Shown here: positions 21,006 to 60,978 of the stretch, piece after piece
How the letters are laid out: every line of letters begins with the position of its first letter
How positions within the stretch are numbered: the stretch's first letter is position 1
Assembly (NCBI GenBank): GCA_002189035.1
Contig: NEEC01000004.1
Span: 3,410,001-3,474,000 of the forward strand
DNA: 64,000 nt
Source: Utricularia gibba
Taxonomy: Eukaryota; Streptophyta; Magnoliopsida; Lamiales; Lentibulariaceae
Reading direction: 5' to 3'
Translations under genes and position numbers: made by a program
The notes under the pieces: generated by a model
What the model saw: only the letters and a program-made list of their open reading frames with translations
The model's database searches: none
What the model was told of the DNA's origin: nothing

Positions 21006-23151
21006 TCAGAGGTCTGCCTCCCAATAAGGTGAATCTCTACTGAACAAGCTTCCCAGTTTTACTGGAGAGGGGTTGTCGTGAGCTGATAGCCGTGAAAGGA
21101 TTAGGCGGGCGATGTTCTCTGCAGCCACGGCACTTGTCTCGATGGTGCTAGCAGCGTTCTCAAAGGCATTGATATAGTAGAGATGTTTCCCATCTAAGAT
21201 GAAGGGAGCATACTCCTCCGGTGCATGGTAATGAGGATAGGCACCCCAGTTGATTCTGATGGTCTCCTCTCTTACACTGCAAAAGAAGAGAAACAGTTCA
21301 GAAAAATGAAGACACATTTTTCCTTGTATGTATGTGTGCATGCCATTTTATCTTGTACCTAAACGCATCGTCCAGCAAGGAGTCCAGCATAGGTTGCCGG
21401 GAGAATATCTTGTATGTATTGTCTTTCTCATGCTGCTTAAGGATGCTGATGCTTGTGAATGGTATATCAGCAGATTCTAGAGTGCCCACCAAATCGGGGA
21501 TGTCTGAAGAAGCATCCAAATGAAAATATGCCTGATCAAGAAGCAATGAAAATTTCAGTAATAACTCATAGAGCATGATCCGATAACATGATATGTTGTA
21601 CTCACCGGATTTAATAGTCCCTTAACGAATGTTGCATGTGTATGTTGTAGCTTTCGGGGAGGCAATGATATCTCTGGAGCAAAATGGATGTTAACCTCAT
21701 CCAAGGGTGTAGCGACCACAGCTATATCACAGTTGTAGCTGTTCCCTGTTGATGAATTCATCTGGTAGAAGTCTCCTAGGAAAGATATTGATTCTATTTC
21801 CTCATGAATATGAAGCTCGACGTCCGATCGATTGATCAACCCAGCAGCCAGCTGCCAGTTTCCCCCTCGACAGCCCATAAGCCACTTCCAGACCCAGCCA
21901 GAGAGACAGCACCAGCAAGGCCACTGATGTTCACACTCTGCCCATAATTTATTCTCGTAATGACCTGAAGAGATTAAATGGTGATGATACCAAGGAGGGA
22001 GAAACCGTTATCTAGGAAAATAAAAAAGAATATCTTACAGTAACAAGCTCTTGAATGAGCAAAGGACTAAATCGAAGTTCCATAGATGCCTCTCTTAATG
22101 TTGTCTTAGTCAAATTGTGAAGCCCTGCCCAATGAAGCATTCCTTCCACGGTATCAAAAACAGGACGGATTTTAGGACTTTCATAGTATCTCAGGAAATC
22201 ATTGACTGTCACCTACAGTTAACAGACATAGCCATATCATCACCAAGAACTACAAAGTAAAATCGAATACTCATAGTGTATGACCAAAACACATATTCTG
22301 TCACCTGGGTATTTAAAAATGCTAACAAACACATCAATCTTGATGTACTACGACTAGGAATGAGCATCTCAGCTGCACAATCAGTAAGTTCATGAAGAGG
22401 TAGAAAAAGAAAAGAATAGTCTTCATGATTTGCATGTGAGCAGCATCATTTAACCAAGACTTTGATCTATACAGGCTGAAATATTTGCACATTCATCGTT
22501 TGATCGAAGCTCATGCAAAATGGAAACAGATTTTACATTAGCTAGATACTCGAGCCCAAAATATCGAGAATTCCAGGTATGATCAATGGCACCAAATACG
22601 GGTAGCGAATAAAGACCCAAAGGTTGAGGGGTATGTACCTCGATGAATCTGTTCATCCGCAAAAGAGATAGGAAACCATATCTCAGCATCAGCACAATTG
22701 AATTAGCAATTGACACCAGTGTTTTGATAATCCACAACTTGGAGTTGGAATTGATAGACTTGTAGACAAATTTCTTCCCATCCCAAATCCCGAGCGACAG
22801 AGAATCATCCGCGTGCTTAGGGTATTTCACTTTGAGGTCAAGATACTTGGTAAAATTCAAGGCATGGTAGTTCTTGGGATGCAGGATGGAGCCTCCGGCC
22901 TCGAAAGTGTCCCCTGCTATGGTGACCGTGGCGGTGCGGCCTCCGACGACAGCGTTCCGTTCAAAGACGGTAATCTTCCCTAGTACTCCGGGTTCCGAGT
23001 ATTGCCGGAGAAAATGAGCTGCGGAAGCGCCGCCGATGCCACCGCCCACTATGCAGACCGTGTGGAGATGGGCGTTGGAGAACTGAAGCGGGAACAGAGC
23101 AGTAGACAGTAAGAGGATGATGGTCACACTCAGCCCTCGGCCTTCCTTCAT
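21006..23151 (-). CDS. FCLY: Farnesylcysteine lyase / prenylcysteine oxidase-like (5 exons, one frameshift)
   Basis: A FAD-dependent thioether oxidase of the prenylcysteine lyase family. It oxidatively cleaves farnesylcysteine, released when prenylated proteins are degraded, to farnesal, cysteine and H2O2. In Arabidopsis, loss of FCLY raises ABA sensitivity. Exons (minus strand): 23151-22639, 22212-22039, 21964-21606, 21531-21359, 21276-21006, all with GT-AG introns. They total 1490 nt, or 496 codons plus stop if one missing base is allowed; the Arabidopsis protein is similar in length. An N-terminal hydrophobic segment at residues 8-25 fits a signal peptide. The Rossmann motif VGGGIGG is at 35-41, the acidic E64 follows the second strand, and GGR is at 70-72. 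Oddity: in exon 3 the C5 run at 21862-21866 is one base short, shifting the frame at about codon 262 (after GLWAVEG). All downstream exons remain conserved and in phase with each other, so I suspect a sequence error. Confidence 0.9.
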
Positions 23152-23159
23152 TGCTCCTT

Positions 23160-24330
23160 CCCTCTACCGCGGAACCTCAAACCGTTGACTTAAGCATCCA
23201 TCGTCTAATTCCCAGCATCAGATGAGGCTCTGGTGCTTTGCCGGGTTTTTAGGGCAGGTGGGATGGGCAAACTTAAACTAGCTTTTTAGTAAAATAACCC
23301 CATCCCAAAAATTGATTAACCAAATAGCATTATTTTGTAACTTTTAGTAAACTATATTTTTTAAAATATTTTTTTGTTAAATAATTCTATTTTTTTCTTT
23401 ATATTATATAATATTATATTTTACATAAAAAATTAATTAATTTTATTCATAAAAATGCAAATACAAATACACATATATATATATATGCAAAAATAAATAA
23501 TTTTTTAATTAAAACTATAATTTTAAGTTTATATGAAACTAATATTAATCAAAATATTAAAAAACACATATATAATTTCTTAATAGAATATTTAAATTAA
23601 TTTTATTTTATAAAGAATATAATTTGTAGAAAGAAAAATGGAACTCTTAACTATCAAATTTAAAGAATACAATTTAGTCAATTAAGCTACAATCATGAAT
23701 TATACATAAATATGTTAGTGTGATATTACTGGGGACGTGAATTATGCATACAATTTTCATATTCTATTTATACACGGTTAAGATTTATGCATAATCTATG
23801 TTTATGTGTGATTAATAACCTTTAGTTTTAAATAATTTTCAGTTAGAAAAATGGCTGTTATCACCATGAAAAATTAGGATTTTATTTGTTGCAATCAGAA
23901 ATCAATTTTATTGAAATGAATCATTTTCAAGTTAAGAGACCAATGTGTTCATAGTCGATTTATGACTTTTTTGGCTTGCAGATTCTTATTATGGTGAAGG
24001 GATTTTATTTTTTGCAATTAGAAATTAATTAAAACGAGGACGATATCTCGTGATTTTATTAATATGTCCTCACTTGTGGTAGATGAATACCATATTATAA
24101 AATAGAAATTACAAAATGAAATCAACCCAAATGTTGATACTTATGAAGAATCAACTTACTAATTTAAATTGAATAAAAATATAAATATAAAAAATAAAAT
24201 TCTTACCATTTGAGATTAGAATGTGTCATTAGCGTTGAATAGTTTCACTCCTCATTTTCTTCAAAACTTAAATCTTCATAGTCCTCTTCATAACTTGATT
24301 CATAATTTTTCTTCATCTTTTTGGCATCAT
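23160..24330. other. Upstream spacer of FCLY and AT-rich DNA
   Basis: The first 100 bp should hold the FCLY 5' UTR and promoter; no clear TATA box was seen. The rest is AT-rich. It includes a tRNA-like repeat near 23630-23695 (separate entry) and an (AT)n run near 23475. No gene is supported. Confidence 0.5.
23632..23692 (-). repeat. tRNA-like (SINE-like) repeat, copy 4, weak
   Basis: On the minus strand TAGCTTAATTGACT (23690-23677) matches the A-box-like motif of the copies at 11503-11516 and 19924-19936. The B-box region is decayed (GAGTTCCATTTTT, about 40 nt on). Tail similarity was not followed. Confidence 0.4.
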
Positions 24331-24334
24331 TTCA

Positions 24335-26322
24335 ATTTTTAAGGCACACGCAAGCTTTCAATGTATTAGGAGCAAGCTTTAATCTTTTTATTGTCAATGT
24401 TCTCCCACTTGCTCTAAATGCACTCTCCGAAGGAACGATTGACACTGAATGAGTAAGAATATATTTGACCGTTCTAGCCAAAATAGGAAAATTTATAGAA
24501 TTTTTATTCCACCAAAGTAATATATCAAAAGAATCATTATCACTCTCTTCCACTATAGAAGTATCGTTATATAACATGTATTCTCTATGAGATAAAGTTA
24601 TAGAAAACTTGTGTACACTACGAACTATAGTAGAGGAATTTATAAAAAATAAACATAAAGTAGAAGGTATAGAACAATAGTATTCACATTAGGATTGAGA
24701 TCATACTCAACTTGATATACATTATACATAGTTTGAATATTAGAAATTGTATCAAACTTCATTTTTGAAATATTAAAATCAGTTTGTTCAAGAAAATATT
24801 TTCCAAACACATCAAGAAGAGTTTTAAAACTTTTTTTCTTTATCCTAGGATCAAGAATTGTAGCAACAATATATAAATAAGAATTTCATAATAATATTTC
24901 AAAAAAAATTTTGAATTTGTGCTATTATTTCATCAAAAGGAGGCAGCTTTGAAAATTTATTAAAAGTATAATAAATTTGAACAAGTTGATTGGAAAACCA
25001 AATATGTAGTTAGATAATAAGAAGTACTTAACAATTTAGTGACGGAATAGAAAACACCAAGCAAATTAGCAAATGTATCAATTATAGAAAAGATTGATTC
25101 ATTTATAATACCACTAAAACCAACAAGGTTTTCACAAAATTGAATCAAAGGCATTTTATAAGGCAATAATGCAGCAAGCATATCATAAGTATAATTCCAT
25201 CTAGTTTTGCAATTAATTGAAAAATGTTTGAATGTAAGATTTTGCTCAGAACATTAGCACTTCAATTTATTCCTTCTTGCATCACAATGCCTAAAATACG
25301 ATATCATTTTATGAAAAGGTCTAATGATAGAATCATCTTTATGCAATTTATCTTGAACACATAAATTCAAAATATAATATACACATCTATTATGAAAAAA
25401 AATTACATCTAATAATGGTAAGAAGTTGGTTTTCAAAAGAGATATAACAATATTATTAGTAGAAGCATTATCCATGAAGATTGCAAAAATTCTAGAAAAA
25501 ATTCTATACTCATAACAAATATTTACAATCACCTTATATAATGAAGATCCGAAATGTGAAGAGACCAATACCTGAAAGTTAATATTTTTTTCTACATAGT
25601 CCAATCATTATCAATCCAGAAGCATGTAATGACAATATAATTTTCATTATTTATATCGGTCCAACTATCACAAGTTAATGAAAATTTAGTAGAACTCAAA
25701 GATTCAAAAATTGGAAATCAATTTTTTCTATAAAATATTGAAATCATTTAAAATAATCTTTATAGATTTTTTACTTGAAAACCCCTTATATGCAATTTGA
25801 GCTTTAGTTTTCATTAATTCAATAAAATCTTCACCTTTCACAATATAAAAAAAAACAACTCTCTTGAATTTAACCAATGAACAAAATAACATGAATATAT
25901 CCAAATCAAAGTAAAAACATTAAATACCCTCCACTAATTTTAAGTTGTGGTTGTTTTGAATTCCTAACTATTTTATCTTTATGATATTTTATCATATGTC
26001 TTTTCATATTTCCAATCCTCCAATTTTTCCATCACCCTTTTTAGAAGTATAATTTTTTTCCATAGTAATTACAAACTACTTTATTAGACACAAATTCATT
26101 CAGATAAAAAGAATTCCACCAAATAGATTTTCTACTACTGGATTGACTACCTAAAACATCACATAAATTGAAACCTAAGTCTTCAGACTCAAGATCTATT
26201 AGTATGTTTTTATTAGACTCTAACTCATGGTCATCATTCATTTTAACATGTAAATTTTCAGAGCCATGGTCATTAGAATCTAACAAATCATGAGGAGCAT
26301 GAAATGTTCTTGAAACAGCCAT
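24335..26322 (-). pseudogene. hAT-family transposase pseudogene
   Basis: Minus-strand pieces in order: an N-terminal region starting at the ATG at 26322 and leading to a BED-zinc-finger-like stretch, VVCNYYGKKLYF (26080-26041); a central hAT part (25604-25254) with IFAIFMDNASTNN, CVYYILNLCVQDKLH and MISYFRHCDARRNKLKC; and the C-terminal hAT dimerisation region (24577-24335) with FDILLWWNKNSINFPILA, ILTHSVSIVPSESAF and SGRTLTIKRLKLAPNTL. This is the order in plant Ac/Tam3-like and RICESLEEPER-like transposases. Stops and frameshifts between the pieces mean no intact protein. Terminal inverted repeats and target duplication were not found. Confidence 0.85.
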
Positions 26323-26499
26323 TTTACCTTTTGTTACTTGATCGAATTTTGGAATCTCTTTCTCAATGGTTTAGCCTTCACCCCCTCAATTTCTGGAATA
26401 TCCATTCTGGGTTATTGAGTGCACAAGCAATTGACAAGGAAATGGAATCGACGATGTCAGTGCAACGATCGGAAATGGAATTGGAGATGTGATGATGGA

Positions 26500-29400
26500 T
26501 GGATTCTTGAGATGAATTATTAGGGATTAGGTAGATGGTGTCACGGTGGTTTGGGTAAAGAGGATTGTAAATATTTTAAATTATAATATAAAAATGTAAT
26601 TATTACAAGAATAAAAAAAATTAAATATATTCATTAATAAATTATGTGTGTATTGGATGGCTTGATAGTATTAATTGTGGTATTCGTGAATACTTTTATT
26701 TAATAATGAATAATAATATTTAAAATTTATAAATTGACCTATCGATGTATAGTTTGAATCATACGAGTTGCAGATTTATTTTACTTGGCCTAACCTATAA
26801 TCTATAAATAATGGGTTTGATCCACAAGTGAGCTCATTACTAGCAAATTGGGTCGGGTCGATAGGTTAGGTTAGCCCATGCCCACACTTAGTCACAATAG
26901 GGTATTAAAACTAATCTAGAACTAGTAAAGTATAAACTCAATTTCCAACAAACACACGTGATGAAATATATTAGATTGAAATTATAGTAAATATAAGGTG
27001 ACACTTTAAGGTTCAATGAATGGAAAACTTCTCACTTATCTCGTTCTAACATGATATGAATTTTTTTTTTTTTTCATAAGAGATTTAAGTCTATCTAAAT
27101 ATTCCACCTAACTTTGGTCTATCTTTAGTTAGATTTTGGTGGATAAATGCATTACTCTTCTCTGCTTCAAGATCTATTCTCGTTGGATAAGAAAAGATTA
27201 AAGGATTTTTGTTACGAACTAAGAGGCAAAGAGTAACCCATCTTCTTCTACCCTAAGTCATCACTTTTTCATTTAGCTACTCATGTAGAGTGAGAACAAG
27301 GTAAGAGGATAAAATAAAAACATACAAACTTTTCCGTGTATCAATAGTCAAACAAAAAAGATGTGTAGAAATTAAACAAAGTAAGTTCACATTGAAAGTG
27401 AAAATAATTTTTTTTGTTCTACCCCCAATCACTATTAGTATTCCATCCATTGTTTCTTGGTACAACCTGTTAAAATGTTTTTCAATTCTTTTTTCTTCTC
27501 CTCTCTTCTGGGTTGTCCCTCCCCCGGAAAAAAAATCCACCTCCATTTTTGCCAAAATCTTCTCGATTTTTTTCTCTTCCCCTCTCCTCATTTCCTTGAA
27601 ATATGGTTGTACCTTATTTCTCCACTTTTTAGTTTGTGTATTAGACTTCCAATCTACCGTCCCTGTACTAAAACAGGGTCTGTTAGACGTGGATATTTGG
27701 GATGTGACTCAAAAGTAATCAATTGTACTCAAGCATACATGATTAGTGTCAGGTAATGATTAAATTACAGATTTAGCCCTAATTTAAAAAAGAGATAAAA
27801 AAATTAAGATAACATTTCTAAAAAATACTATAAGTTACTCGACATCCAAATTTTTAATATAAAACATACAGATTTTTTTACTTAAAAATCTTAAACAGTT
27901 ATGTGTGATCATGTAACTATAAACATGTCTTAACTTTCATTTTATGAAGATATTTTGCTTAATTTTAACATAAGTAGCTATGGTATAAGTGATGTCTTGA
28001 AAAGAAATGAGAGTGTGTTAGCTTAGTTAAGCTTTAAATGAGTAGTATGCTTGTGTATCTTTTCCTAATAAACTAGAGTAGATCTAGGAAGGAAGAAAGA
28101 TAGTACACCTAATAAAGTAATCTAATGTAGAGATAGATCAAAGGTTTGATAAATGATTAAAAATAAACCACAATAAGATGATAAAGATCATTTGAAAAAT
28201 GATGAAAATGTTGTATAACTGGACACTTTGGATAGTAAGATTATTTTACTTGGACCAATCGTAATGAATAAGAACAAGAAGATTAAAGCTACACTTAATT
28301 TTCTACTCAAAAATATTAATTTAGAAGTTGGGTTTAATAATTTACTACCAAAATAGTTCAACTACGTAAAGTTGGATCTACTTTAAAACCCAAAATATCT
28401 CTTTATCTTTGATATGTGTCATTGGACTTGTTAGCCTCTCATTTTTTTTAATTTGAATTTGGTAATGTTAGAGTTCAATTGTAGAATTAAATATTTTAGA
28501 AATGTATTATTGAAAAGATCTTTAGGTTATTTCATGAATATTGTAATGATTTTTTTTTCGTTGAGTACTTAAATATTCTTGATTTATGAAGCTCATGAAC
28601 TTATAATGTCTAAAGATTATCACTTCGAATTCATTCTCATTCTAAAGTGTGGTTTCTAATTTTTTTTTTATAATATGATTATAAAAGATTCATTCTCTTT
28701 AAAATAGATTTGAGCGGATTCCTTTTAAACAGTAAATCTTCTCATATTACTAAGTTGTTAATCTCTTTAAATTAAAGGATCATATCAGTTAAATAATCAG
28801 AGTTTCTCATATAGAAATCAATATGATTAAGTAGACTTAGTTTTAGAGTGGGATACTCTAAGGAGGTTATATGAAAAACCAAGGAATATGAATTGAGCAT
28901 ATGATAAGTGATGTTCGGGTTTAGAGTTTAGGGAGTGACATCCCTTCCACTAATACATTGAAATAAAAGTCACCTTCATGCCTTCTACCTAATGTATGTA
29001 GTCTCCAAACCAAGGCTTATTGGGTGGAAGAAGACATCATCATTTCGGGATATGGTGATGCCTTAGACTCAAATTATATGCTCAACATTTTTTTTTTTTT
29101 TTTTTTTTGGGAAGCCCTCATCTTTTACAACTTTCATATAGTGCTTTCGGACACGTATAACCAACCATAGGATAAGTTCTTTTTTCCTTTTTTTCATCTT
29201 TATGAAAGATGTCTAAGTAGGTATGACGGCATGAACCTTGTACACCTTAGGATTTGAGTTTGAACTATTATAAAAAGTCTTATGGAAAGCAACAATGCTT
29301 CGATTAGTGTTTTCATAAATTCCTTAACCCGCCCATCACCCATCTTTTAATTTCACCTCTCCAACAATTCAAAAATGGTAATGGGTGAAAGTGAGTTCAA

Positions 29401-30200
29401 TTTTTTTTCAAACACGCCAATGCAGGTCACTCGTGGGTCAAAGACTGGTAACCCGCCAACCCATCGGATCAGTCATTAAAAGTATTATTAAATGAATATA
29501 TATATATATATAATTAATATTAATAAATTTTGTTACTCTTTTCCACTCTCCAAATTTTCAGAAATCCATAGTCGTGGAGTTGATAATTTTGAAGACACGC
29601 TACCATCTTATTTTATTGTTTATTATTTGGAGTTGTAGTGGTTAATTATAAAAGTGTTCACCTTCTTATTTTAAATTGTTTAATGCTTGTAAATTTATTT
29701 AATGTATTACTAAATTTAAAACTAAGAAATAAATCATGTTTTTCAAATAATATAAGCTTTTCAAAAAAAAAATCAACTTTTAAAAATAAATTAAAATATG
29801 AAAGATAAGGATTTTGCCTATTTTTATATTCATATATTCCATTTGAAAAACTTTTGAAAGATAATGATTAATATGAATTATGTTTTTAATTCAAATTATT
29901 TATTATTTTTAAAAATTGAAAATTTTTATTTATTTCATAAAATATAGTATATAATTATATATGTATTTTTATTACTTTAAATCAAAGAATAATGGCTATT
30001 TTTATAATAAAAACTGCACAATGTCCACTTTTCTAATACCAAAACAGACAGTGAAGATTTTTGTAAAAGAGGCGGGCGGAGTTGTAGTGATGTTAGAGTA
30101 TTAAATGAATAATTACATTTACCATATATATTTTGTTGTTAGATTTTGACTATTGACTGCTATGTTAATGAAATAATGAATCTTATTAGCTGCAAATGCC
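26500..30200. other. AT-rich intergenic DNA, no gene supported
   Basis: No conserved coding sequence on either strand. Visible structure: GGGTCGGGTC-type sequence near 26850-26890, which resembles subterminal sequence of hAT elements and could be the right end of the element at 24335-26322; two similar purine-rich segments near 27520-27590; a small inverted repeat (GAGCATAT near 28898 and ATATGCTC near 29078); a poly-T run of about 20 at 29089-29108; ACCCGCC-rich sequence at 29325-29470; and an (AT)n run near 29496-29512. Confidence 0.45.
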
Positions 30201-30217
30201 AAAATAATCATTATTAA

Positions 30218-30400
30218 CCGGGCAAAGCACCCTCCATGAACCAACCGCAAATCCACCTGCCCTGCCGGTCTGAAATAAAAAAAATTGAACCGATGGATGG
30301 TTCCAAAATTATATAACCCGCACCCGCACCCGCGGGCAGTGGGTTGGGTGGAAACTGGAAACCTGCCCATGTACCCTCATCAACACTCCTAGCTTGGATA
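30218..30400. repeat. GC-rich patch with ACCCGC repeats, possible hAT-derived remnant
   Basis: A GC-rich island in AT-rich DNA with CCCGCACCCGCACCCGCGGGC near 30319 and CAGTGGGTTGGGTGG. Subterminal ACCCGC/GGGTTGGG repeats are common in non-autonomous plant hAT elements, so this may be one; no TIRs were identified. Confidence 0.3.
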
Positions 30401-31777
30401 CATAAATCATTGGGTATTTCCCCGCACATGCACTATTCTGAGGAACTGCCCAGAAGTAGAATAGAACCGGTTCTGAGGAAATTAATCACTAATGTTTTTT
30501 TAAAAAATAACATAATGATCCCCCTCCCTCTCCTCTACATTACTGCTAGTAAGATATTACTTGTGGAGAGAAGACCTTGATACGAAGTATGCAAAAAAAA
30601 AGGACCTAGATATATATATATAGTGGTATGGGAAAATATTTCCCTTGGAAGCAAACACCCCAAGCACAGAGTACCCAGAAACAATCTCAAATAAAACTTG
30701 ACAAGTGAAGGAAGTACCTAGAGAGAGAGAAATGCAAAATGCTGCTCATGGAAGAAAGACTGCAATGACAACAAGGGAAGCAAACAGTGAGTCCGGCAAG
30801 GGGCATGCATCACCACTGTAGAGCTAGCTCATCAAGGGTTTAGTGCCCAAGAAGAAACAAACAACAATGTCGATAAACTTTAATGTATCAAGGAAAGGAT
30901 CTCATCTCCCCCAATTGATATTATAGTGTATGATTCCTTTTAATGCGATGGAGAGGAGGATCAACTTGATGCACCTTTAATCCATTCTCATCCATCTCCT
31001 AACTGCACCCACCTTTAATTGCCCTTCTCGGTGCTCACCATCCTTAGATACAATGATAACCACTAGTTGTCTCCAGGGAACCTCTAACTCATCTTTTCAT
31101 ATTATTCTCTCATGTGAACCAACCAACATAAGCAGCAGCATTCTTAGTTTTCTTCTTCTTCTTTTTTTTTTTTATCACAAGCTATACTCGAAAACAACTC
31201 TGAAAATTATTTTTTCAATCATAACAATGAATATTCATCCCCCATTAATTTTCAAATGTATGATTTTGAAAATTAAATTATTTTTGACAAAAAAAAGCAC
31301 AAGATTGAATAACTATTAATCGAATACAACAAATCTTATTGGAATGACGGCTCAATTTCATTGGGCTTCTACCTATTTTATAAGTGAATCCAACTGCATA
31401 ATTTGAGAGAGAGCCAGAGCATGCATGATAAAATATTGGTTAGGACCGGTCATGTAACCGTCGCACTGGATCCCACTTCCCACCCGGCCGATCCGATAAT
31501 TGAACTCTCTCAACCGCGTCAGACTGAAAGCCCTAAACCCTCTTTCCTTCCCCGCATCGCACTCGCATCCTCGCCACCCAGCTTCTTCAATTCAGTTGAC
31601 CGATCCACCATTGTCTTTGCCTTTTTTTCAGTCTTCCTGTCAGTTTTAGTCATTCCTGTCGCCTTCAATCGCGACTTTGCCTGAACTCCGCTCCCCCACC
31701 CCCACACACGCCCAATTTTCTTTGTTTCAGTATATTGCAATTCCAAAACTGTGGGCTTTCTTCCTGCTTTTGCTTAA
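30401..31777. other. Upstream region of MED16
   Basis: No gene supported. There is an (AT)n run near 30611-30623, a GAGAGAGAG tract near 30721, and a C/T-rich segment at 31480-31700 that probably includes the MED16 5' UTR. No convincing TATA box was seen. Confidence 0.5.
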
Positions 31778-34700
31778 ATGAGTAGCAGCACTGCAAATAA
31801 TTCAAACCCCAACTCACATTCCCATCCTTCCCCTAAGGCGCCACTGCCTCAGGAGGAGGAACCCTCATCATCTCCTGTATCTCCCTCGGCTAACAAGTCT
31901 GTGGTTGAAGAGTTCCCCGGAATGGTGGAGAAGCTACAGCTAAATCTCGCTGTTGTGACCACAGGTGATTTCATGGAGGAAGATTCTGCGCGCCCGGAAA
32001 CCGTTTTTTGTATCAAGCTTAAGCAACCATCGTCTAATTTGCTGCATAAGATGAGGGTTCCGGAGCTTTGCCGGACCTTTAGGTTGGTTTTATTCAATAT
32101 TGGCTATCTATCTATAGGTTGTGGGGTAGCTTCGTATTTGAGCTACTGTGAGCTAAAAGGATAATTTCCAATTTTTTTGCGCTTATGGTTATGGTAAATT
32201 GTGTGATTATCACCTAAGAATCTTGTCGTCTGTTATCAATTGCTATATGTAGTTGAAGATGAGTTAGGTTTCAGTGTATCTTTATGGGGTTGGGGAGTCG
32301 ATCCTATTCTGATCACTTCGAGAGTCATTCCACATTTGACATGCTTTTTCTCTTGATTTCATTTGAGGCTTATTTCTTGTTTTGTTTTTCTGTTCCTATG
32401 TTTGATTATACGTGCTAAAGGGTTGCTATTTTATAGTGCTGTTGCTTGGTGTCCAAAGTTGAATGCCATAGCTTGTGCATCAGAGACGTGCGCCAGAATT
32501 CCAAGGTAAGATAAGCGTTTTATCATGGCCATTTTTCCTGGTTCCTCAATGCATGACGTAAGAATCTTAATCCCTCTGGCATCATAGTGTTTAATTTAGG
32601 GTTTATTTAGGAGACATTATGAGGGTCAGGTGCTTTGAGTTTTGGAAACTGACGCCCCTTGTATGCCGTTTCCTCATAATTTAATGTTACCGAAATCATG
32701 CAATGCTAAATAATTTCCACTCATTATTCTGTCTGAAGGTCAGAATATCAATCGGCATAAATTTTATAATGATTGACAGTCTATGGAACTGTGTCAAGAA
32801 TCACAATCAGATTGGCTCGTTCATTTTTTGAAGTGATGAATGACTTCTTATATTCTTGTGTAACCATGAAAATTATGATGCTCTTTTTGTTTTTTTCATT
32901 CCAGTTCAACTACAAACCCCCCATTTTGGATCCCCATACATATTGTCATCCCCGAGCGGCCAACTGAGGGTACGGTTTTCAATGTCACTGCAGGTAATGT
33001 GCAATTGTGGTACATTACAATTGATGGCGAAGTGTATTACGGTTTAATTGATGGCATTTTTCTTAATCCTTTTTCTGTGATAGATTCGCCCCGTGATTCA
33101 ATTCAGTTTATAGAGTGGTCTCCTATTTCGTGCCCACGTGCATTGCTTGTAGCCAATTTCTATGGCCGAGTAACCATTTGGACACAGCCTTCCCAGGTGC
33201 ACTAGCTTTTATTTGTTTTATTGTTTGCAATATCAAATAAGTCGATAATTTTTTTTCCAATTTTGCATGACATGTGTATTTACCTTCTCCATCATCAGGG
33301 GCCAGTGAATCTTGTGAAGGACGCCAGCTATTGGCAGCTTGAATACCAGTGGAGACAAGATATTGCGGTTGTTACAAAATGGCTGTCTGGTGTTTCTCCA
33401 GTATGTGGTTTTCCTTTGTTTGTTGAGATGATCAGCTTGAGTTTATATGCTGATTTATATTGTCATAAATAGTACAGGTGGCTATCTTCTAGGTCGACTG
33501 GTTCAGGAAAGATGACACTTGCTGAAAAGTTTCTTTCACAGCAACCATACGTTCCAGGTTCTATTTTTGCTATATCTATCCCTTATCCACTCTCGGAAAA
33601 TTGGTCGTTATCACTATTGAAATGCCTGCATTATTTTATTAGTTTTGTGTTTCAAGTTATCGTGTCAAGTGCATTTACATTAATCATTGTGTATCCCATA
33701 AAATCAAAGGCAGATACGTTTTTTGTATATTCAGTCTTTAGTGTCGATATGTTTACTTTTTCAAGTACATTACCATGGCTTTTTTATCCTCGATAAACGG
33801 TCCTCAATGCACAGTTGTGATCTTGATTGTTTCTTATGCATCACAATATAAGACAACTTTTATTGGAAAAGGTTTTCTTGTTTCAATCTGGCATGTTTTT
33901 CTGCTGATTATTTTCTCAAAGAAGTGTTGTTTTTGAAAATGTGATCCTTGCATAATTGAATGGAAATTTTTGCTTATTAGTATCCCATCAGCAAGTTTGG
34001 TTGTCTTATACAGTGTCATGACTTTAATTTTGCTATTTACCATTCTTGTTGCAGCTGGTTGGCCAAATTTTCTTTGTGTCTGCACTGTATTTTCGTCAGG
34101 CTCTGTTCAGCTTCACTGGTCTCAGTGGCCACCTAATAAGAATGGTTCACAATCCAAATGGTTTTGCACTAATAAGGGTCTTCTGGGTGCTGGGCCGTGT
34201 GGAATAATGGCTGCTGATGCAATTATTACTGACTCAGGAGCATTGCATATCGCTGGTGTTCCTATTGTTAACCTTTCCACTGTTGTTGTTTGGGAAGTCA
34301 TGCCTGGCCCTGGGAATGGTTTTCATGTGACTCCAAAGGCAACTGTTTCTAATGAAGCTCCACCATCACTTAACCCACCTTCTTGGAATGGGTTTTCCCC
34401 ATTAGCCGCATATCTGTTCAGCTGGCAGGATTTCCTTGAATCAGAATCAAAACAAGGGAGAAAACGGACAGAACAAGACTACTGTGACATGGTGGCGCTT
34501 CATTGTTCTCCAGTTTCAAATTTTTCAGCGTATGTGAGTCCTGAGGCTGCGGCCCAATCAACAGCAGTCACAACATGGGGTTCTGGTGTTACTGCTGTTG
34601 CCTTTGATCCAGCCCGTGGTGGTTCTGTGATATCTGTTGTCATTGTGGAAGGTTCTCTCAGATAATGTTTTTTAAGCCCAATACATTGATAAGATCTTTC

Positions 34701-38514: not shown

Positions 38515-38586
38515 ATTAAATGGCTTGTAGATTGTATCCTGTGCAGTGCAAAAGCACCCATCCTCACTAATTAGATAGAGAGGTGT

Positions 38587-39542: not shown

Positions 39543-39546
39543 GTGT

Positions 39547-49302: not shown

Positions 49303-51015
49303 GGCATACCGAAAACCCCAAAGAATGAAAAGTAGCCGAAGCGCAGGAAGCGAACAGTTTTCAAAGAATACGGAATGCCATTATTAGCAATTGAAAGTTG
49401 ACAATGGAAACCCTACAGCCAGGTTGCCCACATAAAAAGAAGGAGAAGGAAAATGTAATCATGACGGAGAAGAAAGTAAAGGTGCAGCAATGGGAAGAAG
49501 CGATTTTGGAGTGGAGAGACCCAGCACCAGCAGCAGTACAAAAGAGAACTCCGCTATGCTATGCTGTGCTACGCAGTGCTGGGCTGGGTGTGTGTGAGAG
49601 AGAGAGAGCCTGTGATGGTGCCGGAGTTTCCACTTTTCAGGACCCCAAAGGTTTCAAACTTTTATTATTATTTTATATTATTATTATACGCACATGCATC
49701 ATACACACACGTTACGGGTCGGGTAGTTTATACATAAATATATAATACAATTTTAAAATCAGATACTATGTTAGTATATATAAAATAGTTGGAAATTTAA
49801 TGGCTATAAATTTTAATATTAATATAAAATGTATCTACAAATTTAAAATTTACTTCGAAAATACTTAATATATACATACAAAGCTCATTGCATATTCTTT
49901 ATTAAATTAATTCATGATAAAAAAAATCATTTTATAGGGAAAAAAAAAAGAGATTCGTATCAAGAATTTTTTTTCCCTAACGAATTTGCTCACATGAAGA
50001 TTCACCATATGTGTGAGTGAGTGTATTTAGATGGATTTGTATATTTAGTCATTTTTCATAGGTATTTTACATTTGAGTTTCTTTTTCTTCGATTGATTTA
50101 GAGAGAATTTTATTTAGATATAATGTTCGGTGTTAGGAAAATATATTTGAAATAAATATAAATATTTAAATATATTTAACATGATTAAGCAAAATTCTAT
50201 ATATATTGATCAAAAAATATTGTGTATATATATATATATTTGAAATACAATATTATAAAATCCATCCACTATTCAAAAATTTTATCGCATTTTTAAATTA
50301 TATTTAATGTAATAAAAATACATTTTTAATTATATTTAACATAAATATAAATATTTAAATATATTTGATATAATTAATAAAAATTGTACGTATATTTGAA
50401 ATAATATATATATATTCTTTAGCAAATGACAATTTTAATATCATTTCCTCTTTTTTTTGCATTCAATTGCATACATTGACTTTTAAAATTGGTACAATTA
50501 ATCTCCATTGTTTAATGAAAATAACATAATTATTCCTCATTGACATATTTAATCCTAATATTTTGATATATCGAATATATTTAGTCTTCAATTGTTTTAC
50601 TTTAATCATTTTTTATCGTCATGTTATAAATACCAGTTATAATTGATCTTTAATATTTAAAATTTGAATAATCTTGATCCCTATTTACTATTGTGTTCAT
50701 AATTTGATAAATTAGTCTCCATTTTTTTGGATCTAAGTGTTGACCATCACCCGTCGCCCATCGCTCCTGGTCAGCAGTGGTCGGTAACGATTCGATCGAT
50801 AATAATAAAATTGAATTAAGAAAAAAATTAGAATTTATAATTAAGAATCAATTATTAATATAAATAGTAGAAGCTATTTTCACACGATTATAACACAGTT
50901 AATATCAATTATAAATGACCTTGAAACAATGAAAATGAAAACACAATTCATACCGACAAATTATATCATTTAAACAAAAAGTTGAAATTATTCCCATACT
51001 TTTCCCTTTTTTTTT
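49303..51015. other. Intergenic: VAL promoter side and PRD1 3' flank
   Basis: 49303-49620 is the VAL upstream/5' UTR region, GA-rich, with a GAGAGAGAGAG tract at about 49598-49608. 49650-51000 is AT-rich with no gene; an (AT)n run lies at about 50225-50238. A GC-richer patch near 50750-50790 is unassigned. Confidence 0.5.
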
Positions 51016-54000
51016 TCAAAATAACCTATTTACACTCGAGTGTCCCGAACTTGTTGAGGCGCTTTCATCCACACGCTTGATGAATGAGTCTACTTCCTGT
51101 AGCAGTTGTGTCCTCCAGTGAGACCTCTGCTTGTGACGCCGTGGGCGCGACAGAGCAGACACCATGCTGAATAGAAACCGGCGGACGCCGGCGGCGGCAT
51201 CCTCTGCGCTTTCTGCTGCTCTATCAGCATCATCCTCCCTGATGATATCTCCATTCTGGACATCATCATCATACGCACGTCTCCGCCAGGCCTGCAAAAC
51301 GCTATCCAGAATCAACGGACGAAGCAAAGAACATGCAAGGTGTGCGCTTGTCTGTCTCACATGGAAAAGTCTGCAAAGCTCAGAAATATGTGCGGAGTTC
51401 AGATGCCCAAGTTCCATTAGTCTTCGGAATATGATCACCAACTCGATGCTCAGGCTGCTAGGAGTCATGTTCTTGATGATGTTTCTGACGCAGGAATCAC
51501 CAAACAGCAGGATGATCCATCCAGGGACTTCACTCAACTTCATGAAGGCAGCTGCAACGCCTAGAGCAGGCTCGTAGTGAGTGTTGGATGATTTCGGTGT
51601 CAGAGTTGGAGTGACTAGATACATCACAAGCTCTTCGAAGACCACACGCAACCAGATGTCATGTTGGGTTATCAATGATGTGTTTTCCAGATCCTTCATG
51701 GAAAGCAAATATGATAGGCATCGAGAACAATTCATTGCAACTCTGGTATCACTGTAGAATATCATGCCTCCAAGAACAGATGAAATAGATAGAAGATAGC
51801 CATCTTTGAATTTCAGTTCAGATGTCTCTGTGTGTGATATCCATGCAAATAGTTCCACGAGGCAAGAAGATGCAACTAGTTTGACTGATGGGGGCCAAAA
51901 TACAACAGCTTGCATAATTCATGGACACGAATGCAAATATTGCATAAAGGAGCCATGGCAACTTCCTCATCAACGAATGCTTGGAGGTCAACAACATCTG
52001 ATAGGACAGCTCTTAAGCTGTGACCCAATGAAAGCTACTTGAGGATAAAGGAAAACGACAATAAAAAAAAGAATATTCATAATACCTTCTTATGGAGAAA
52101 AAGAGTAACACGAGAAAATGAACGAGAACTTCCCCTGATCTTGCACCCTTTTCCCCATTAAACAAAGTAGATCCCTTTGATAATGCATCACAAACAGTAG
52201 AATCAACAGCCACTGCCAACGACGAATTCAGAAAGATGGTTTTACACGCTTCTTTTAGCACCCCTGCAGTTGAATGGTGCAAAATCAGAGAAAGGACCCC
52301 AGTTGCTACGGAAGCTTCTTCATTCCACCCGTGTGAACTCGCATTTGAAAACATGTATTCCAACAACTGCCGAGTCGATATATAATAAAAAATAAAAATA
52401 AAAATAAAAATAGAAAAACTACTTGCATGAATAGGAAGAATACAAGGCAAAAGTCGCCACCTTTTTTAATATCCCGATCCAAGATCCACTATTGGAGATC
52501 AACTTAGACTGGACTGATTTTAATAAAATGAACATAAACTGAGACGTGGCTGCAAATAACTCTTGGAAAGAAGATAATGAAATGTTAACAATGTCACCCA
52601 GCACTGCATCAATACCATGCATAAAGAAACGATCAGCAGCACCTGGAGCAATGTCAACTATACTTTTGCATATTTTGACAACCGAAATTATCTCATAATT
52701 TTGGTTAGCTTCTTCCAATAGATCTCTCAATAAGCATACAAAAATAAATGCTCCGAAGTTGCCATCTGATCTAACCAACTCAGCAACTACATCCAAATCC
52801 ACTTCTTTAACCGCTTTAAGGCAATGTTCTCCATGAATGCCAACTGTGTTGCATTTGCAAAAATTCAAGATCTGGGAAGATAAGGGTAGGCATAGTTTTT
52901 CTTGTTGCATCATCCATCTCAGTGATATGAAATGGATCTTTGAAGAAAATAAATCCCAGTCCGCTGCATACAACAGCTCAAAAAGTGTACTTTCAGCTTC
53001 AGGGCTATATGGTATTTGGCAACTCGCCTCTGCAAAACCCCTATACAGCCCATAGAGATTTACTATCACGTCTGCTGTGATGACGTTTGAAGCATCACGG
53101 AGGAAATCACTCAAGTTCAGTAGAATAAATTGCTCCAATGAAGCTAGCACCAAGTTGTCATCAGCAACCCTTCCAAAAAAGAAAGAAATTGAAAGCTTCG
53201 TAATTAACAGAAGCGAATGGCATACGAGATGTTGTAGTAATATTAGCAAGAAAATATACCTGTCATCATAAAGTGAACTTAAATAGAGCAGTAAAAGGAC
53301 TGCTGATTGGCAAGTGTACAGTTCTAGATTATGATAACTCTTCTGACCGAGAAGGAATAGTAAATCTTTAGGGTCAGATGGCAGATGAACAGCCGCATCC
53401 TTAATTGTTTTCCCATATTCAGAACCCAGAAGCACATCTGTAAGGGAATTGAAACTCAGATAAACCATTAATTTCATTTTATTCGAGGGAAACAAGCCCA
53501 AACATCCAAAGGAAACACTAAACCACGACGATGAAACTACATCCTCAGCAAAGCTCTTAGTATGAGTGTTGGAATCTTGAACCAGCATGAAAATGAGAGT
53601 TTCAATCAGTCCCAAGGCAAAAGCCTCCTCTTCCAACTCATTTACTTTCAGAATGAACCAAGGTAATATCTTTAATTTGAAGATATTCAAAATGAAAGGC
53701 TTTAGTTCACTCACTGAAGAGGTAAGGCATACGTTTTCTAGCCCATATGCATAAGCTTCCTTCAAAAGGTACAGAGAGTGCAAAATTTGGTCCATGGTTA
53801 CAAAAGCACATTTCGTGCATGTTGAAACAACAGACGCCAATGTGTCTTTGATTACTGCAACCAAGCTTGAATTTCCATGAGACGATGTGCACTTCATGAT
53901 AGCAACAAGCAGTGAACAGGATAGACTGAATGTCTCGGGAAGAATTTCAATATTGTTACTAAACATTCCTGCCAAGATGCTGCTTATTTCTTCACTTGTG

Positions 54001-56354
54001 CTTGAAGACACCAACCCCGGACTATTCAATACAAAACTTAAAACAAGCTTCAACAGAGGGCAGTGCATAGGGTGCAAAGAAATAGTAGCTACATAATGCA
54101 GGATGGGAATCAGAGTTGAGAACCCTATAGCAAGTCTTGGTCTAAAGGATTGTTCAGCAGAAGATAACAGAACAAGAAGCTGAATTGCAGAATTGGCAAT
54201 TGGATCTTTGTTTCCTAGATATCAACAATACAGAAAAGGTAAAAAGAAAAAGATAGTGAAAGAATACACTGTTAACATGCGCATAAAACAAATTGAGTAT
54301 CCATAATAGAAATGAAGCGGAAGAAATTTCAAGGATTATCAATCAGACAGTATCGACTAACAAGTACCCATTACATTCAAAAAAGTTTGTTATTCACAAA
54401 TTCAGACTCATAGTAAATGATAGGTAAGTGGGCATTTGATATAACAATAATTGTTTGATACCACCAGGAAGAGATTATGAGCAGCATCTATTTGATACAA
54501 CAATTACAGAAAACACAGCACTTATTGAGAAAAATGGACTAGCACCAGGAAAAAGCTGGGCTGGGAAAAATCTTACTGATTACATTTGTAAGACACTTAC
54601 CAGATAATCTCAGTACTTCAAATATGTAATCTGCAACATCCTCCTTTATGAATACATTAAGTTCATTCTCTGAGGACTTTGCCCCAGATAGGTACATAAA
54701 CACTAAGTCCAGCATGGCTGTCTGAACTTTAGTGTCAGAAGAAAGGAGGGGCCCCTTGACTGCTTCTGCAAACAACACATCCAAATGGCGTCCATCCATG
54801 TCAGATTCTGTCATTTGCGTGAAATTGCCACCAACGAAGCCATCTATACTCCCGGAAGTTTTTGAGTTTCCACTCTGAAAGAGCCCCTTCCTAGCCAATA
54901 CCATTAGAAATGCTGCAAGACAATAAGAAGTTGTTTTAATAGATACGTAAGCACAAGGATGACCTACATGCACATTTTCAACTTCATCATGAAATAATCA
55001 ACAAAGAAATCTCCCACTTAATTCTAGGATGCAAAGTGATATTTGCCCTGTCGTCACTCATGAGTAGATGAGAGAAATGAAAGTTTCTTATGTGTTTAAC
55101 GCTGAAAAAGATATCATGCTTCGAATAAATGAGTAATGCCGGAGAAAGAAAAAGATCGTTGGACTGAGATTTCTGAACAATATAAAATAAAAGATCAAGG
55201 AGAAGAAATTAACCGATGCAATTGAAGCGAACATCATCACTTTGGCTTTTCACGAGGATTTCAAGTGATAGTTCGAAAATCTTAGGGAAGTATGATACGA
55301 AGCTATCTGTGGCACTATCATCCACATATGTGAAGCACATGAGTGATAACCGATACAAGACAAACAAAATCTCCCCTTGAATCTGATCACTACATTTCAA
55401 TGGAATTAAATGTATAAGCATTGCTTAAGGAAACAAAGATTAACAACTTACTCAAACATTAGATTCACTTACTTCGACAACTGGAGGCCGGTAACAAGAC
55501 TGCAAAGGAGGCCATCTTTGTTTTTTATAGAGTTGTACGCATCAAAATGATCACCTTCCTCCAGAAGGACCCCAAAGCAGTGGATCTGCGATCCGAGATA
55601 TGATATAACAAACATGGACAGAGAAATAACAGTGGTGTAACAATTACTTATTGTTCGCAAGTTGCCATCGCTGGAGTCAATGATATTCACTTGACTATCA
55701 TCTCCATCAATTTACAAATTCGAAAGGAACCCTTCAACACGGCTGATGCAGTAGGAACACAATCAATGTCGTGGCAAATAATTAACAATCATCTCCCAAC
55801 TGCCCAAATCTTAACAGTCTAGTTATGCATAAAAATACTCCCATTGCAAAAGCAATACCAAAGCAATACAAAGACGAATAAGAAAGAGAAACCATCCGTA
55901 AAATTACCATGTAAAATTGACGACGGCTCCAACCCAACGAACCACTAGAAAGCCAATCCGAAACTCTAGCTACGAATTCCTTGTAAATTTCCGAATTTCC
56001 GTTGCAGTTGGAGGCATCGCATAAGCGTTGGATCATTTCGATGGTTTGCTTAGCGATAGGCTCATCGTCGAAGTTGGATAAGACATGAAGAAGAGGAGAA
56101 ATAAGTAGATGAGAGTGCATGGCGAGAAGAGAATGGAGGAAGTGGGGCTGGAAAAAGGCTTGAGAAAGCTGCGATAGAGCGTAGGAGACATGCACGGTGG
56201 GCGATTTCGGGTTGTTCAGCAGATTCGAAAAGCAGAGGAGGCAGATGCTGCCGCCCTCCGCCGTGGGAATGACGAAAATGCTCCGGTGGCCTTGACCGCA
56301 GGTTTCCGGCGGCATCGCCAGCGGTGATTGGCCGGCACCCTCGATAGAGTACAT
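51016..56354 (-). CDS. PRD1: PRD1, meiotic double-strand-break protein (8 exons, one frameshift)
   Basis: Plant homologue of mouse MEI1, required with SPO11 for meiotic DNA double-strand-break formation; nuclear, meiocytes. Exons (minus): 56354-55908, 55585-55473, 55389-55214, 54912-54601, 54214-53260, 53169-52461, 52366-52086, 52017-51016; GT-AG throughout. They total 3995 nt, or 1331 codons plus stop if one base is restored, close to the Arabidopsis length. Recognised segments: TAEGGSICLLCFSNLLNNPK, SPTVHVSYALSQLSQ, SGSLGWSRRQFYM, QIQGEILFVLYRLS, DVLFAEAVKGPLLSSDTKVQ, DVADYIFEVLRLSG. Start chosen at 56354 because it places QGHR about 20 residues in, as in relatives; an in-frame ATG at 56426 would add 24 residues. 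No named domain; helical repeat-like. Oddity: the G5 run at 51890-51894 is one base short, shifting the frame at about codon 1039; the remaining roughly 290 codons are open and homologous in the next frame. Confidence 0.92.
52384..52412. repeat. AAAAAT microsatellite in PRD1 intron 6
   Basis: About four and a half AAAAAT-type units in the intron between exons 6 and 7 of PRD1. Confidence 0.7.
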
Positions 56355-56426
56355 CTGTCCCGCGTGAAAAAACAAAAAAAAAAAAAGGGCAGAACTCCTC
56401 CAGTATGGGGGCGGCAGAGGAACCAC

Positions 56427-57230
56427 CTGATCATTAGAATTAGAAGCAAGGTGGTGGTATTAGTGTCAGGTGCATTAAGTTTGCACTCTAACCTATTTTC
56501 AAATTTTGTTTGAAAATTATATAATATTTATCTAACATTTTCAAAATACTTTACGTTAATATTCGATTTATAAAATAAAACATAAAAAATAGAAATACAT
56601 AAAACTTAATCTTTAAATTTTCAAATCATAATACTAAATCTGAAATTTAAAAATTCTATAGTCTAAAACTTAAATCTTAAATCTTAAATCCTTAAATATT
56701 AAATCGTAAAAATAGTCTAAACTTTAAATCTTAAACTCTAAAATTTAAATTTAAAATCCAAAACTAAATCCCAATCATGAAATCCTAAACACTAAATAAG
56801 TAACCGTACAAAATTGTGAAACCTTAAACCCTAAATCATTAATTGTAAAAACTAATCATAAATTATGAAAACTTAATATATAATATTCCTAAGTTATAAA
56901 TACTAAATATTAAACTTTAAAATTGAACCCCTAAATTTTAAATCCAAAATTATTATTAATAACATAAAAACCGAAAAAACCATAAAAATAGGGTAAAAAA
57001 AGGGTATATTTTAGGGAACAACTTTCAAGATTCATATAAATTACTGGTGTTGGTGACAAAATCGACCAAAATTATTTAGAAGATTGTCTCCGTACATATC
57101 ATTGAAGCAGGAAAAATGCATTGGTTTGAATGTTGAAATGGGGGTGGTCGTAAAATCCGCACACGAAGAGCAAGGAATCAGGGGCATTGATAAGGATTCT
57201 CCCCACACAAGGCAAGGCAGGTAGCTCCTC
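56427..57230. other. PRD1 / small-peptide intergenic region with telomere-like degenerate repeats
   Basis: From about 56640 to 56960 the plus strand is a run of degenerate CTTAAATC, CTAAAAC and CCTAAA units, reminiscent of the plant telomere repeat CCCTAAA heavily mutated. The end of this tract is copy A of a direct repeat (separate entry). No gene seen. Confidence 0.45.
56860..56965 (+). repeat. Direct repeat copy A (106 bp) upstream of the small-peptide gene
   Basis: Nearly identical (about four differences and a shifted A/T in 106 bp by eye) to 57943-58048. It starts AAATTATGAAAACTTAATAT and ends ATTATTAATAACAT. Confidence 0.8.
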
Positions 57231-57233
57231 TTG

Positions 57234-57240
57234 TATAAAT
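57234..57240 (+). promoter_or_regulatory. TATA box of the small-peptide gene
   Basis: TATAAAT lies 42 bp upstream of the ATG at 57282, in a CTCTTG-TATAAAT-TTCC context. This implies a very short 5' leader, or a start codon further in. Confidence 0.5.
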
Positions 57241-57281
57241 TTCCACACCCCGGAGGTGTATTTCATACATATTTGATCTCC

Positions 57282-57741
57282 ATGGCCAAGACAGCTGCAG
57301 TTGTTTTCGCAATCTTGGTGTTCATCATGGCGGCGCTGATCCCCAAGGTGAGCTCTGTTTTCATGAGAATGAGAATCACTCTTCTTTCTCGTCGTCTATG
57401 TAATCAGATCAATGTGCCACTTGATAGATAGATAGATAGATAGAGGGATCAATTTTTCTGTTTTCTTTTCTTTTCGTTTATACGGAATGCGGGGTTTCAA
57501 ACCCAAAAACATCTCCCTCCCAGATGAGTAGGAGAGCAATGCAATTAGGGCGTAGATCACTGAGATATTGGTGGTGGTGGTTGTCTTTTTTGAAGGTGCG
57601 GCTGCGGCTGCGGCAGCATCATCGCCGAACAGCAACAGGAAGATTTCGGGGCCGGTGGGAGAATCGAAGCGTGTGATTGAGATCCACCCAACTCCCTACG
57701 GGACGCCGTTCCCATGGCCACCAGTCCACCACCACCCCTGA
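57282..57741 (+). CDS. Probable small secreted peptide precursor (2 exons, splice uncertain)
   Basis: Exon 1 (57282-57347) encodes MAKTAAVVFAILVFIMAALI and PK, a typical signal-peptide or membrane segment, then GTGAGC. The last exon ends at the stop 57739-57741 and reads, in one frame, an Ala run (AAAAAAASS), then SNRKISGPVGESKR, VIEIHPTPYGTPFPWPP and VHHHP. The exact acceptor is unclear. AG at 57554-57555 keeps exon 1's frame but adds a hydrophobic ITEILVVVVVFFEG stretch; AG at 57594-57595 needs a different donor to keep the frame. The predicted product is 70-85 residues: a signal peptide, a basic linker and a Pro/Tyr/His-rich tail. That layout fits plant secreted peptides, but I recognise no named family. 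No homologue was checked. Confidence 0.5.
57423..57443 (+). repeat. GATA microsatellite in the small-peptide gene intron
   Basis: Five GATA units within the putative intron. Confidence 0.85.
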
Positions 57742-57942
57742 TCCTGACCTGAACAACAACTTTCCCCCGTCGAGCTGATTACAATAAAGTTCCTCTGTCG
57801 GGGGATTCGCATCGCCGTCTTCTTCTGAAAGCGCAGAGCCCTGTGCTGGCTGTCCTTGCTTTCCTTATCCTTAATATTAATATGTTCAGGTTGTGACTTG
57901 TGCAACAAGAACATGCGTTTCATCAACATCCAACCATAACTT

Positions 57943-58048
57943 AAATTATCAAAACTTGATATATAATATTCCAAAGTTATAAATACTAAATATTAAACTT
58001 TAAAATTGAACCCCTAAATTTTAAATCCAAAAATATTATTAATAACAT
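57943..58048 (+). repeat. Direct repeat copy B (106 bp) downstream of the small-peptide gene
   Basis: Partner of 56860-56965 in the same orientation, about 1.08 kb apart start to start, enclosing the small-peptide gene and its TATA box. Confidence 0.8.
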
Positions 58049-59024
58049 GACAAATAGAACAAAATGCAAAGAATAACTTATTTTCCGGTAATTTACAAAT
58101 CTTTGTTATGGTCAATTTTTATTGTTCTTAGATGTTTAATGAAATACATGAAAACTTGTAAAAGGAAATTAAGGGGATGAGTGACATTAAAATGGGTAAA
58201 TCTTAACTCAATATATAACTAGTGAAGATCATCACAGCCACAGGCCATACCCCTCCCACTTATACTTGTGTGTAATCTTAATTTTTTTTCCTTTGATTTT
58301 TAATCTAAATTTACCAAAAGAGCAAAATGTCAGTTATGCTTTTTACAATAAATTAATTATATATTCTTGAAATTACATAACATCAATTTATTCTAATTAT
58401 CTTTTTCGAAAAAATATTCAGTCATATTTTATTTATGACACCGCTAATTTTTAAATTTTGATAGTATTTGATTTATAGGGATAGAATAATAAAATTGGAT
58501 TTAAAAAATTACACATGTTTGGTAAATAATTAATTATATATTGTAGGTGAATATGGGTATATTCTGTTGGATATTGTTTTTAAAAAGGAAAAAAAAAAGA
58601 ATCAGATATATACGATCTCACATGACATAAATAGGGCGCCCCCCGTCCCGTCTTATCCTATCCATCTCCGAGGATTGTGGATAAATACAAACAAATTAGA
58701 TGACGCGGAAACGAGGTCACGTGCATTTACGCCACCCCCCGATGCACCGCACTTTCTTCTTTAATTCCAATAAATAAAGAAATATTATACCACCGGGATT
58801 TATGGTCAAAATCAAATTTATCCTAGAAAGGATATGAGCAGGAAAATCTCCCCCTAATTAAATAAATTATTTAAAAATACATATTTACATACATATATAC
58901 ACACATACATGCGTATATGGATGTATCCCTTGCAACGGGGATATGATCTGCTCCTGGGGCCATATCCTATCTATCGAATATCAACTTTGTGCGTATCTGT
59001 AACCGTGAGGGACGTCGCCACGCC
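58049..59024. other. Upstream region of the STP gene
   Basis: AT-rich to about 58600, then mixed. No coding sequence supported. 58600-59020 probably contains the promoter. Confidence 0.5.
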
Positions 59025-59032
59025 TATAAATA
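59025..59032 (+). promoter_or_regulatory. TATA box of the STP gene
   Basis: TATAAATA in a GC-rich context, 90 bp upstream of the ATG at 59115. The C-rich ACCCTTCCCCC that follows fits a plant transcription start region. Confidence 0.65.
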
Positions 59033-59114
59033 CCCTTCCCCCAAAACACACTCTCCACCTTTTCGCCTTCTTCTACAGATTTTCCTTTTCGGGTGGGTAG
59101 CTAAGGCGACACAG

Positions 59115-60978
59115 ATGGCCGGCGGTGGTGGCTTTGGAGACCTTCCTCAGGCCGGGAAAGGCTATCCCGGAAACTTGACCCAGTTCGTCATCGTTACTTG
59201 CGTCATTGCTGCCATGGGCGGTTTGATTTTCGGCTACGATATTGGGATTTCAGGTTCCTTGTTCGTTTCTGTGTTTCGGTTATTAAAGGGTACACAGTGT
59301 CGATTGGCGGATTGATTTTTTCGATTACAGGAGGTGTAACGTCGATGGATTCGTTTCTGAAGCAGTTCTTCCCATCGGTGTACCATAGGGAGCAGGCGTT
59401 TACCGAGGATACTGTGCACGCTGTTAATCAGTACTGCAGATTCGATAGCGTTACCTTGACGCTGTTCACTTCTTCGCTGTACTTAGCGGCGCTGGTATCC
59501 TCGCTCGTGGCCTCGACGATTACTAGAAAACTCGGGAGGAAGCGGTCCATGCTTTGCGGTGGCTTGCTTTTCATGATCGGTGCCTTGGTGAATGGTTTCG
59601 CTCGTGCGGTATGGATGCTTATCACTGGCCGGATTTTCCTTGGGTTCGGCATTGGTTTCGCGAACCAGGTAAAAAGCCAAGTCCGGATCTTGTTTTATCG
59701 TACATGCTGTTGCGAGGACGTCCGAGTATCGGCGCTTTTTTGTGTTTTGTTTTTTCGTTTTGGAATCTGATATGTGAAATGCGGGGTATCCCTTGGTTCT
59801 GCAGTCCGTGCCACTGTATCTCTCAGAGATGGCACCATACAAATTCAGAGGAGCACTCAACATTGGGTTTCAGCTCTCCATCACAATAGGCATTTTGGCT
59901 GCAAATCTCTTGAACTACGGATTCGCCAAGATCAGTGGGGCTGGGGTTGGCGTCTGAGTTTGGGAGGCGCCGTGGTGCCGGCCCTCATCATCACCTTTGG
60001 CTCTTTGATTCTCCCAGAAACACCGAACTCGTTGATCGAACGCGGCGACGTAGAAGTTGCCCGAGAAAAACTGAGAAAAATCAGGGGCGTCGTTGATGTA
60101 GACCAAGAGTTCAATGACTTGATAGCAGCGAGTGAAGCTTCAAACAAAGTGAAGCACCCATGGAGAAACCTTCTTCAGAGACGATACAGGCCCCATCTCA
60201 CAATGGCGATCGCCATCCCATTTTTCCAACAGTTCACCGGCATAAATGTCATCATGTTTTATGCTCCTGTTCTTTTCAGAACAATTGGGTTTGGAAGCGA
60301 GGCCTCTTTGGCATCTGCCGTCATCACCGGCGCCGTCAACGTCTTCGCAACCGTAGTCTCCATATACGGCGTTGATAAATGGGGAAGAAGGTTCCTGTTC
60401 CTCGAAGGAGGCATTCAAATGCTGATCTGCCAGGTATCCATCCAACATTTACACCCATTTCATTGATTAGACAAATTCCCAGAAAGCATTTGAAATCCAA
60501 ACTCGTGTGTTGAATTCACTCACAGATCGTGGTGGCGATCTGCATCGGCTTAAAGTTCGGGATCAATGGGAACCCAGGGGATCTACCCAGATGGTACGCC
60601 ATTTTGGTGGTGCTGTTCATCTGCGTGTACGTTGCAGGGTTCGCGTGGTCATGGGGCCCTCTCGGGTGGTTGGTTCCCAGCGAGATCTTCCCTCTGGAGA
60701 TTCGATCTGCGGCCCAGAGCATCAATGTGTCAGTGAACATGATCTTCACATTCATCGTGGCCCAGGCCTTCCTAACAATGCTGTGTCACATGAAGTTCGG
60801 ATTGTTCTTGTTCTTCGGCTTCTTCGTGTTGGCGATGACGTTCTTCATCTACTTTTTCCTGCCGGAGACGAAGAACATTCCGATCGAAGAGATGGCGGTG
60901 GTGTGGAAGCAGCACTGGTTCTGGTCGAGGTTCATGGCGGACGAGGGTGGGGACCTGGAGATGAACGTCAAAGCATGA
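59115..60978 (+). CDS. STP-type hexose/H+ symporter (4 exons, one frameshift)
   Basis: Plasma-membrane monosaccharide/proton symporter of the plant sugar transport protein family (major facilitator superfamily, 12 membrane segments). Exons: 59115-59253, 59331-59668, 59805-60433, 60526-60978. They total 1559 nt, or 519 codons plus stop with one base restored, the usual length. Motifs in order: [19 protein letters not shown] (from residue 35), [125 protein letters not shown]. Oddity: G4 at 59937-59940 is one base short, shifting the frame at about codon 204 (after AKISG); the rest of exon 3 and exon 4 are open and conserved. Which STP it corresponds to is not decided, so no symbol is given. Confidence 0.93.

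Follow-up and report, generated by a model that had tools for sequence, protein, structure and literature searches.

Recurrent one-base deficits in short G/C runs of a Utricularia gibba assembly very probably reflect consensus errors

We examined a 64,000-nucleotide stretch of the Utricularia gibba assembly GCA_002189035.1 (referred to here as the window; positions 3410001–3474000 of contig NEEC01000004.1, our C413), in which three unrelated genes appear to be broken by one missing base each. A previous inspection of the letters, referred to here as the sequence-only reading, had placed every deficit in a G/C homopolymer, regarded the genes as otherwise complete and proposed a systematic error of sequencing or assembly. 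The question raised by this locus is whether the genes are broken in the plant or only in the assembly. The window also contains a hAT transposase region and a ribonucleotide reductase gene, which are listed with the other features in Table 1.

In the STP gene, exon 3 is split between two adjacent frames, the upstream part ending in KISG and the downstream part starting with WRLSLGG. The Pfam family Sugar_tr was matched at profile positions 123–165 in one frame and at 170–330 in the next, without a gap. With the junction residues entered as X, the PDB comparison gave an end-to-end alignment over the junction with Sugar transport protein 10 (6h7d, E 3.6e-89). Splice phase alone leads to the same result: exons 1 and 2 (139 + 338 = 477 bases) and exon 4 (453 bases) are in phase 0 while exon 3 has 629 bases (3 × 209 + 2), and one base is therefore missing. 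Both the profile match and the splice phase thus uphold the proposed deficit at the G4 run.

The FCLY gene gave a similar picture. Pfam Prenylcys_lyase was matched at positions 94–125 and then, exactly contiguous and one frame over, at positions 126–222. Exon 3 is 359 bases long with a phase-0 border at either end and would therefore need one more base to be divisible by three, an argument that is independent of homology. The one-base deficit that had been placed at the C5 run is accordingly retained. A PDB search with the FCLY stretch gave no match. No second lesion was seen in either STP or FCLY, where the downstream parts were in frame and had strong matches to Sugar_tr and 6h7d, and to Prenylcys_lyase, respectively.

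The third gene was named PRD1 by the sequence-only reading, a name without Pfam support as a Pfam search of the gene returned no family. The frames on either side of the switch are open and adjacent (coding-strand letters: TTTTGGCCCCC), and the downstream frame has 0 stops over 845 bases, whereas the two remaining frames have 15 and 21. The deficit had been assigned to the G5 run at 51890–51894. The frame does shift there with both sides open, but the assignment to G5 in particular is ambiguous; judged from the local letters, the missing base may with equal possibility belong to the C5 run of the coding strand or to the neighbouring T4 run. The description of the downstream exons as open, conserved and in phase agrees with the family matches in STP and FCLY and with the open downstream frame of PRD1.

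Table 1. Positions of the genes, frame changes and other features discussed in the text. Positions are those of the window unless a contig is named.
Feature	Position	Strand	Basis
STP-type hexose/H+ symporter gene, four exons, exon 3 one base short	59115–60978	+	Exon borders and phases; Pfam Sugar_tr on both sides; PDB 6h7d match
G4 run, STP frame change, one-base deficit	59937–59940	+	Frame change read directly; profile 123–165 then 170–330
FCLY-like prenylcysteine (farnesylcysteine) lyase gene, exon 3 one base short	21021–23151 (lower end approximate)	-	Exon model; splice phases of exons 1–3 and start of exon 4; Pfam Prenylcys_lyase
C5 on + strand (G5 on coding strand), FCLY frame change	21862–21866	-	Prenylcys_lyase 94–125 then 126–222, adjacent frames
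Multi-exon gene, named PRD1 by the sequence-only reading	51016–56459	-	Long open frames
PRD1 frame change: G5 on + strand (C5 coding), then CC, then A4 (T4 coding)	51890–51900	-	Stop counts per frame on either side; local sequence
hAT transposase C-terminal dimerisation region	24332–24688		Dimer_Tnp_hAT, E 7.4e-17
Ribonucleotide reductase small subunit, complete, intron-less, without frameshift	62799–63848		E 1.5e-116
GRAS gene L061	C375 near 1.928 Mb
GRAS gene L062	C142 near 1.759 Mb
GRAS gene L063	C2 near 1.408 Mb

A genome search found each of the three sites as a single copy in the assembly. Because there was no second copy for direct comparison, the proposal of a consensus error was tested elsewhere in the genome. 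A census of run lengths within the window revealed no clear shortage of G/C runs of 5–6, which is uninformative on its own. The assembly (100,091,633 bases, 100.1 Mb, in 516 contigs) was surveyed by family profile searches and in selected stretches. We chose the KCS, GRAS and BAHD transferase families as their genes are often intron-less. Their match tables contained many neighbouring pairs in which the profile was continuous and the frame changed, with an overlap or gap far below intron size. The switches were placed by frameshift-aware alignment to intact paralogues from the same genome, and the counts were tallied by hand; in L060, two events merged by the script were separated by eye. Five sites with unreliable placement were left out of the counts (BAHD L074, L078 and L079; GRAS L069 and L071); the GRAS copies with several lesions, L071 among them, may be true pseudogenes. 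The tables for UDPGT, P450 and Sugar_tr yielded too few switches that could be placed, owing to a short domain match, introns, or scoring that was restricted to the best candidates.

Around 20 intron-less switches were placed in this way, and all but one were net one-base deficits, counting as deficits two that scored +2, an equivalent change of frame. About half (∼10 of 20) were at a G/C run of at least 4 (L060, L061, L062, L063, L066 twice, L068, L070, L072 and L075). In unbroken coding sequence from these families, equally vague placements reach such a run in 4–9% of cases, so that 1–2 of 20 would be expected; at 9%, the chance of 10 of 20 is ∼3 in a million. Approximately seven further switches were at a G/C run of 3, one of them tied with an A run of 3, and the switches in L065 and L073 had no run above 2. 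None of the ∼20 placed switches was at an A/T run of at least 4, even though runs of this kind occur more often than G/C ones in that coding sequence. Across the whole analysis, runs of 3–7 were among those affected, and the effect is therefore not confined to long runs. The KCS gene L029 has a second event ∼700 bases downstream of its deficit, a one-base gain outside a clear run, which is the only clear gain.

By a rough count over GRAS, KCS and BAHD, roughly one-fifth of ∼100 intron-poor genes surveyed have an intron-less frame switch, in keeping with the prediction that automated annotation will cut many genes of this assembly short. The suggested check for frameshifts in G/C runs, carried out over these families, returned one-base deficits in all three and on many contigs.

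The assembly holds redundant contigs, with small ones (C376 and C316) being near base-for-base repeats of parts of large ones (C413 and C412). The 29.6-kb C376 repeats part of the window's own contig (C413, 5.38–5.41 Mb). Over 16,472 aligned columns (16.5 kb), the two copies differ by 5 substitutions, one 39-base indel and 12 single-base indels. All 12 single-base indels are in homopolymers that are at least 3 long in the longer copy; eight are in G/C, and several are in runs of three C or G. C376 carries 10 of the 12 deficits, eight of them in a stretch at its end, and the two in C413 are C7 to C6 and T9 to T8. Where C316 was compared to C412 over 4.1 kb, there was 1 substitution and ten gaps, all in C316, of which three were single-base G/C losses; the GRAS frame spans 412 aa in C316 but 615 aa in C412. 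The A/T runs that differ between duplicate copies are mostly long (8–10), with one of 4. Two copies of a P450 region also disagree: the frame is 341 aa long in the one that has G4 and 372 aa long in the one that has G5, so that in coding sequence the longer frame accompanies the longer run. Duplicate contigs reveal a disagreement; which copy is correct is not told by the disagreement alone.

Both tests thus favour an error of the assembly, because in each the events are single-base, in homopolymers and rich in G/C, and because deficits exceed gains among the frame switches. The systematic homopolymer error that had been proposed predicts this signature, which was seen in the frame switches of other families and at the twice-assembled loci alike. 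We conclude that the three lesions in the window are very probably consensus errors of the assembly, and that the living plant almost certainly carries intact STP, FCLY and PRD1 genes.

Replication slippage in homopolymers occurs as a real mutational process, and a small plant genome may have lost many genes. The window could on these grounds contain three independent pseudogenisations by slippage in G/C runs, too recent for further lesions to have accumulated. A group of GRAS paralogues speaks against this. L061, L062 and L063 each lack one C in a shared conserved stretch that leads up to TFRLTGIGPP, with current runs of C5, C6 and C4, respectively, and in each the frame is open on both sides. 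We take L061 and L062 to be DELLA-type from the motif DELFGVLGYK, which both contain; L063 is a relative in the GRAS part. Going by the shared stretch, a single sequence context miscalled each time would explain all three, whereas three independent real lesions there are hard to credit. The deficit also recurs in roughly one-fifth of the intron-poor genes surveyed, and run length is the main difference between nearly identical duplicate contigs. In addition, slippage prefers long runs, yet runs of 3–5 are affected, and further downstream lesions are absent in STP and FCLY, as judged by frame and family match. We therefore consider independent pseudogenisation, which had already been thought unlikely given three lesions of one type, to be very improbable.

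A strong bias of the plant itself towards base loss in short G/C runs, with many genes truly frameshifted or rescued in some other way, has a slightly smaller chance of being correct. A further step down in probability is the idea that the assembly caught minor haplotypes or heterozygous frameshift alleles, with most gene copies intact. The 39-base indel and the few substitutions might indeed make C376 and C413 haplotypes, but between haplotypes substitutions should dominate, and here 12 single-base homopolymer indels, several in runs of three C or G, stand against 5 substitutions. Homopolymer runs can be slippery for ribosomes, and programmed or tolerated frameshifting could restore the frame in the cell, but the affected genes are unrelated, share no slippery heptamer or conserved position across families and differ in run length between duplicate copies of one gene, and this is the least credible of the explanations.

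Under the favoured explanation of consensus error, the consensus was probably called from noisy single-molecule long reads and only incompletely polished with accurate ones. Homopolymers, and short G/C runs in particular, would at times be shortened by one base, and such a loss in an exon would shift the frame and make an intact gene look truncated. The process behind the genome-wide pattern would also have struck the three single-copy sites. We infer that the source was PacBio continuous long reads assembled with HGAP/Quiver; a published PacBio HGAP assembly of U. gibba has 581 contigs, an N50 of 3.4 Mb and 88x coverage (PMC5793159). In a literature search, no paper that reports homopolymer errors in this U. 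gibba assembly came up. In raw PacBio reads, homopolymers of all four bases are over-represented (PMC7671305), and raw-read statistics alone therefore do not predict a G/C deficit.

These results amount to a quality warning and are of low biological interest. Gene calls on this assembly would list STP, FCLY, PRD1 and the three DELLA-type genes as broken or absent, and DELLA genes may be missed by annotation as all three read as broken. Claims of gene loss or pseudogenes, family counts and protein sets drawn from the assembly are affected, and calls of a pseudogene or a lost gene made from it require read support.

We regard what is seen here as a consensus error of a recognised kind and not as biology. 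In long-read assemblies, residual indels break annotated proteins unless the assembly is polished with accurate reads (Watson and Warr 2019, cited in PMC9985148 and PMC8337076); from such false truncation our case shows no difference of substance, with the platform here inferred. In a Quiver consensus, false frameshifts have been documented where nine G follow one another, and the same source recommends considering whether the sequence further down is intact (PMC4853030), as was done in this analysis. The two cases are alike in their single-base errors in G-runs, false frameshifts and intact downstream frames. They differ in that the U. gibba runs are only 3–7 long and that the errors are apparently common across a whole plant genome.
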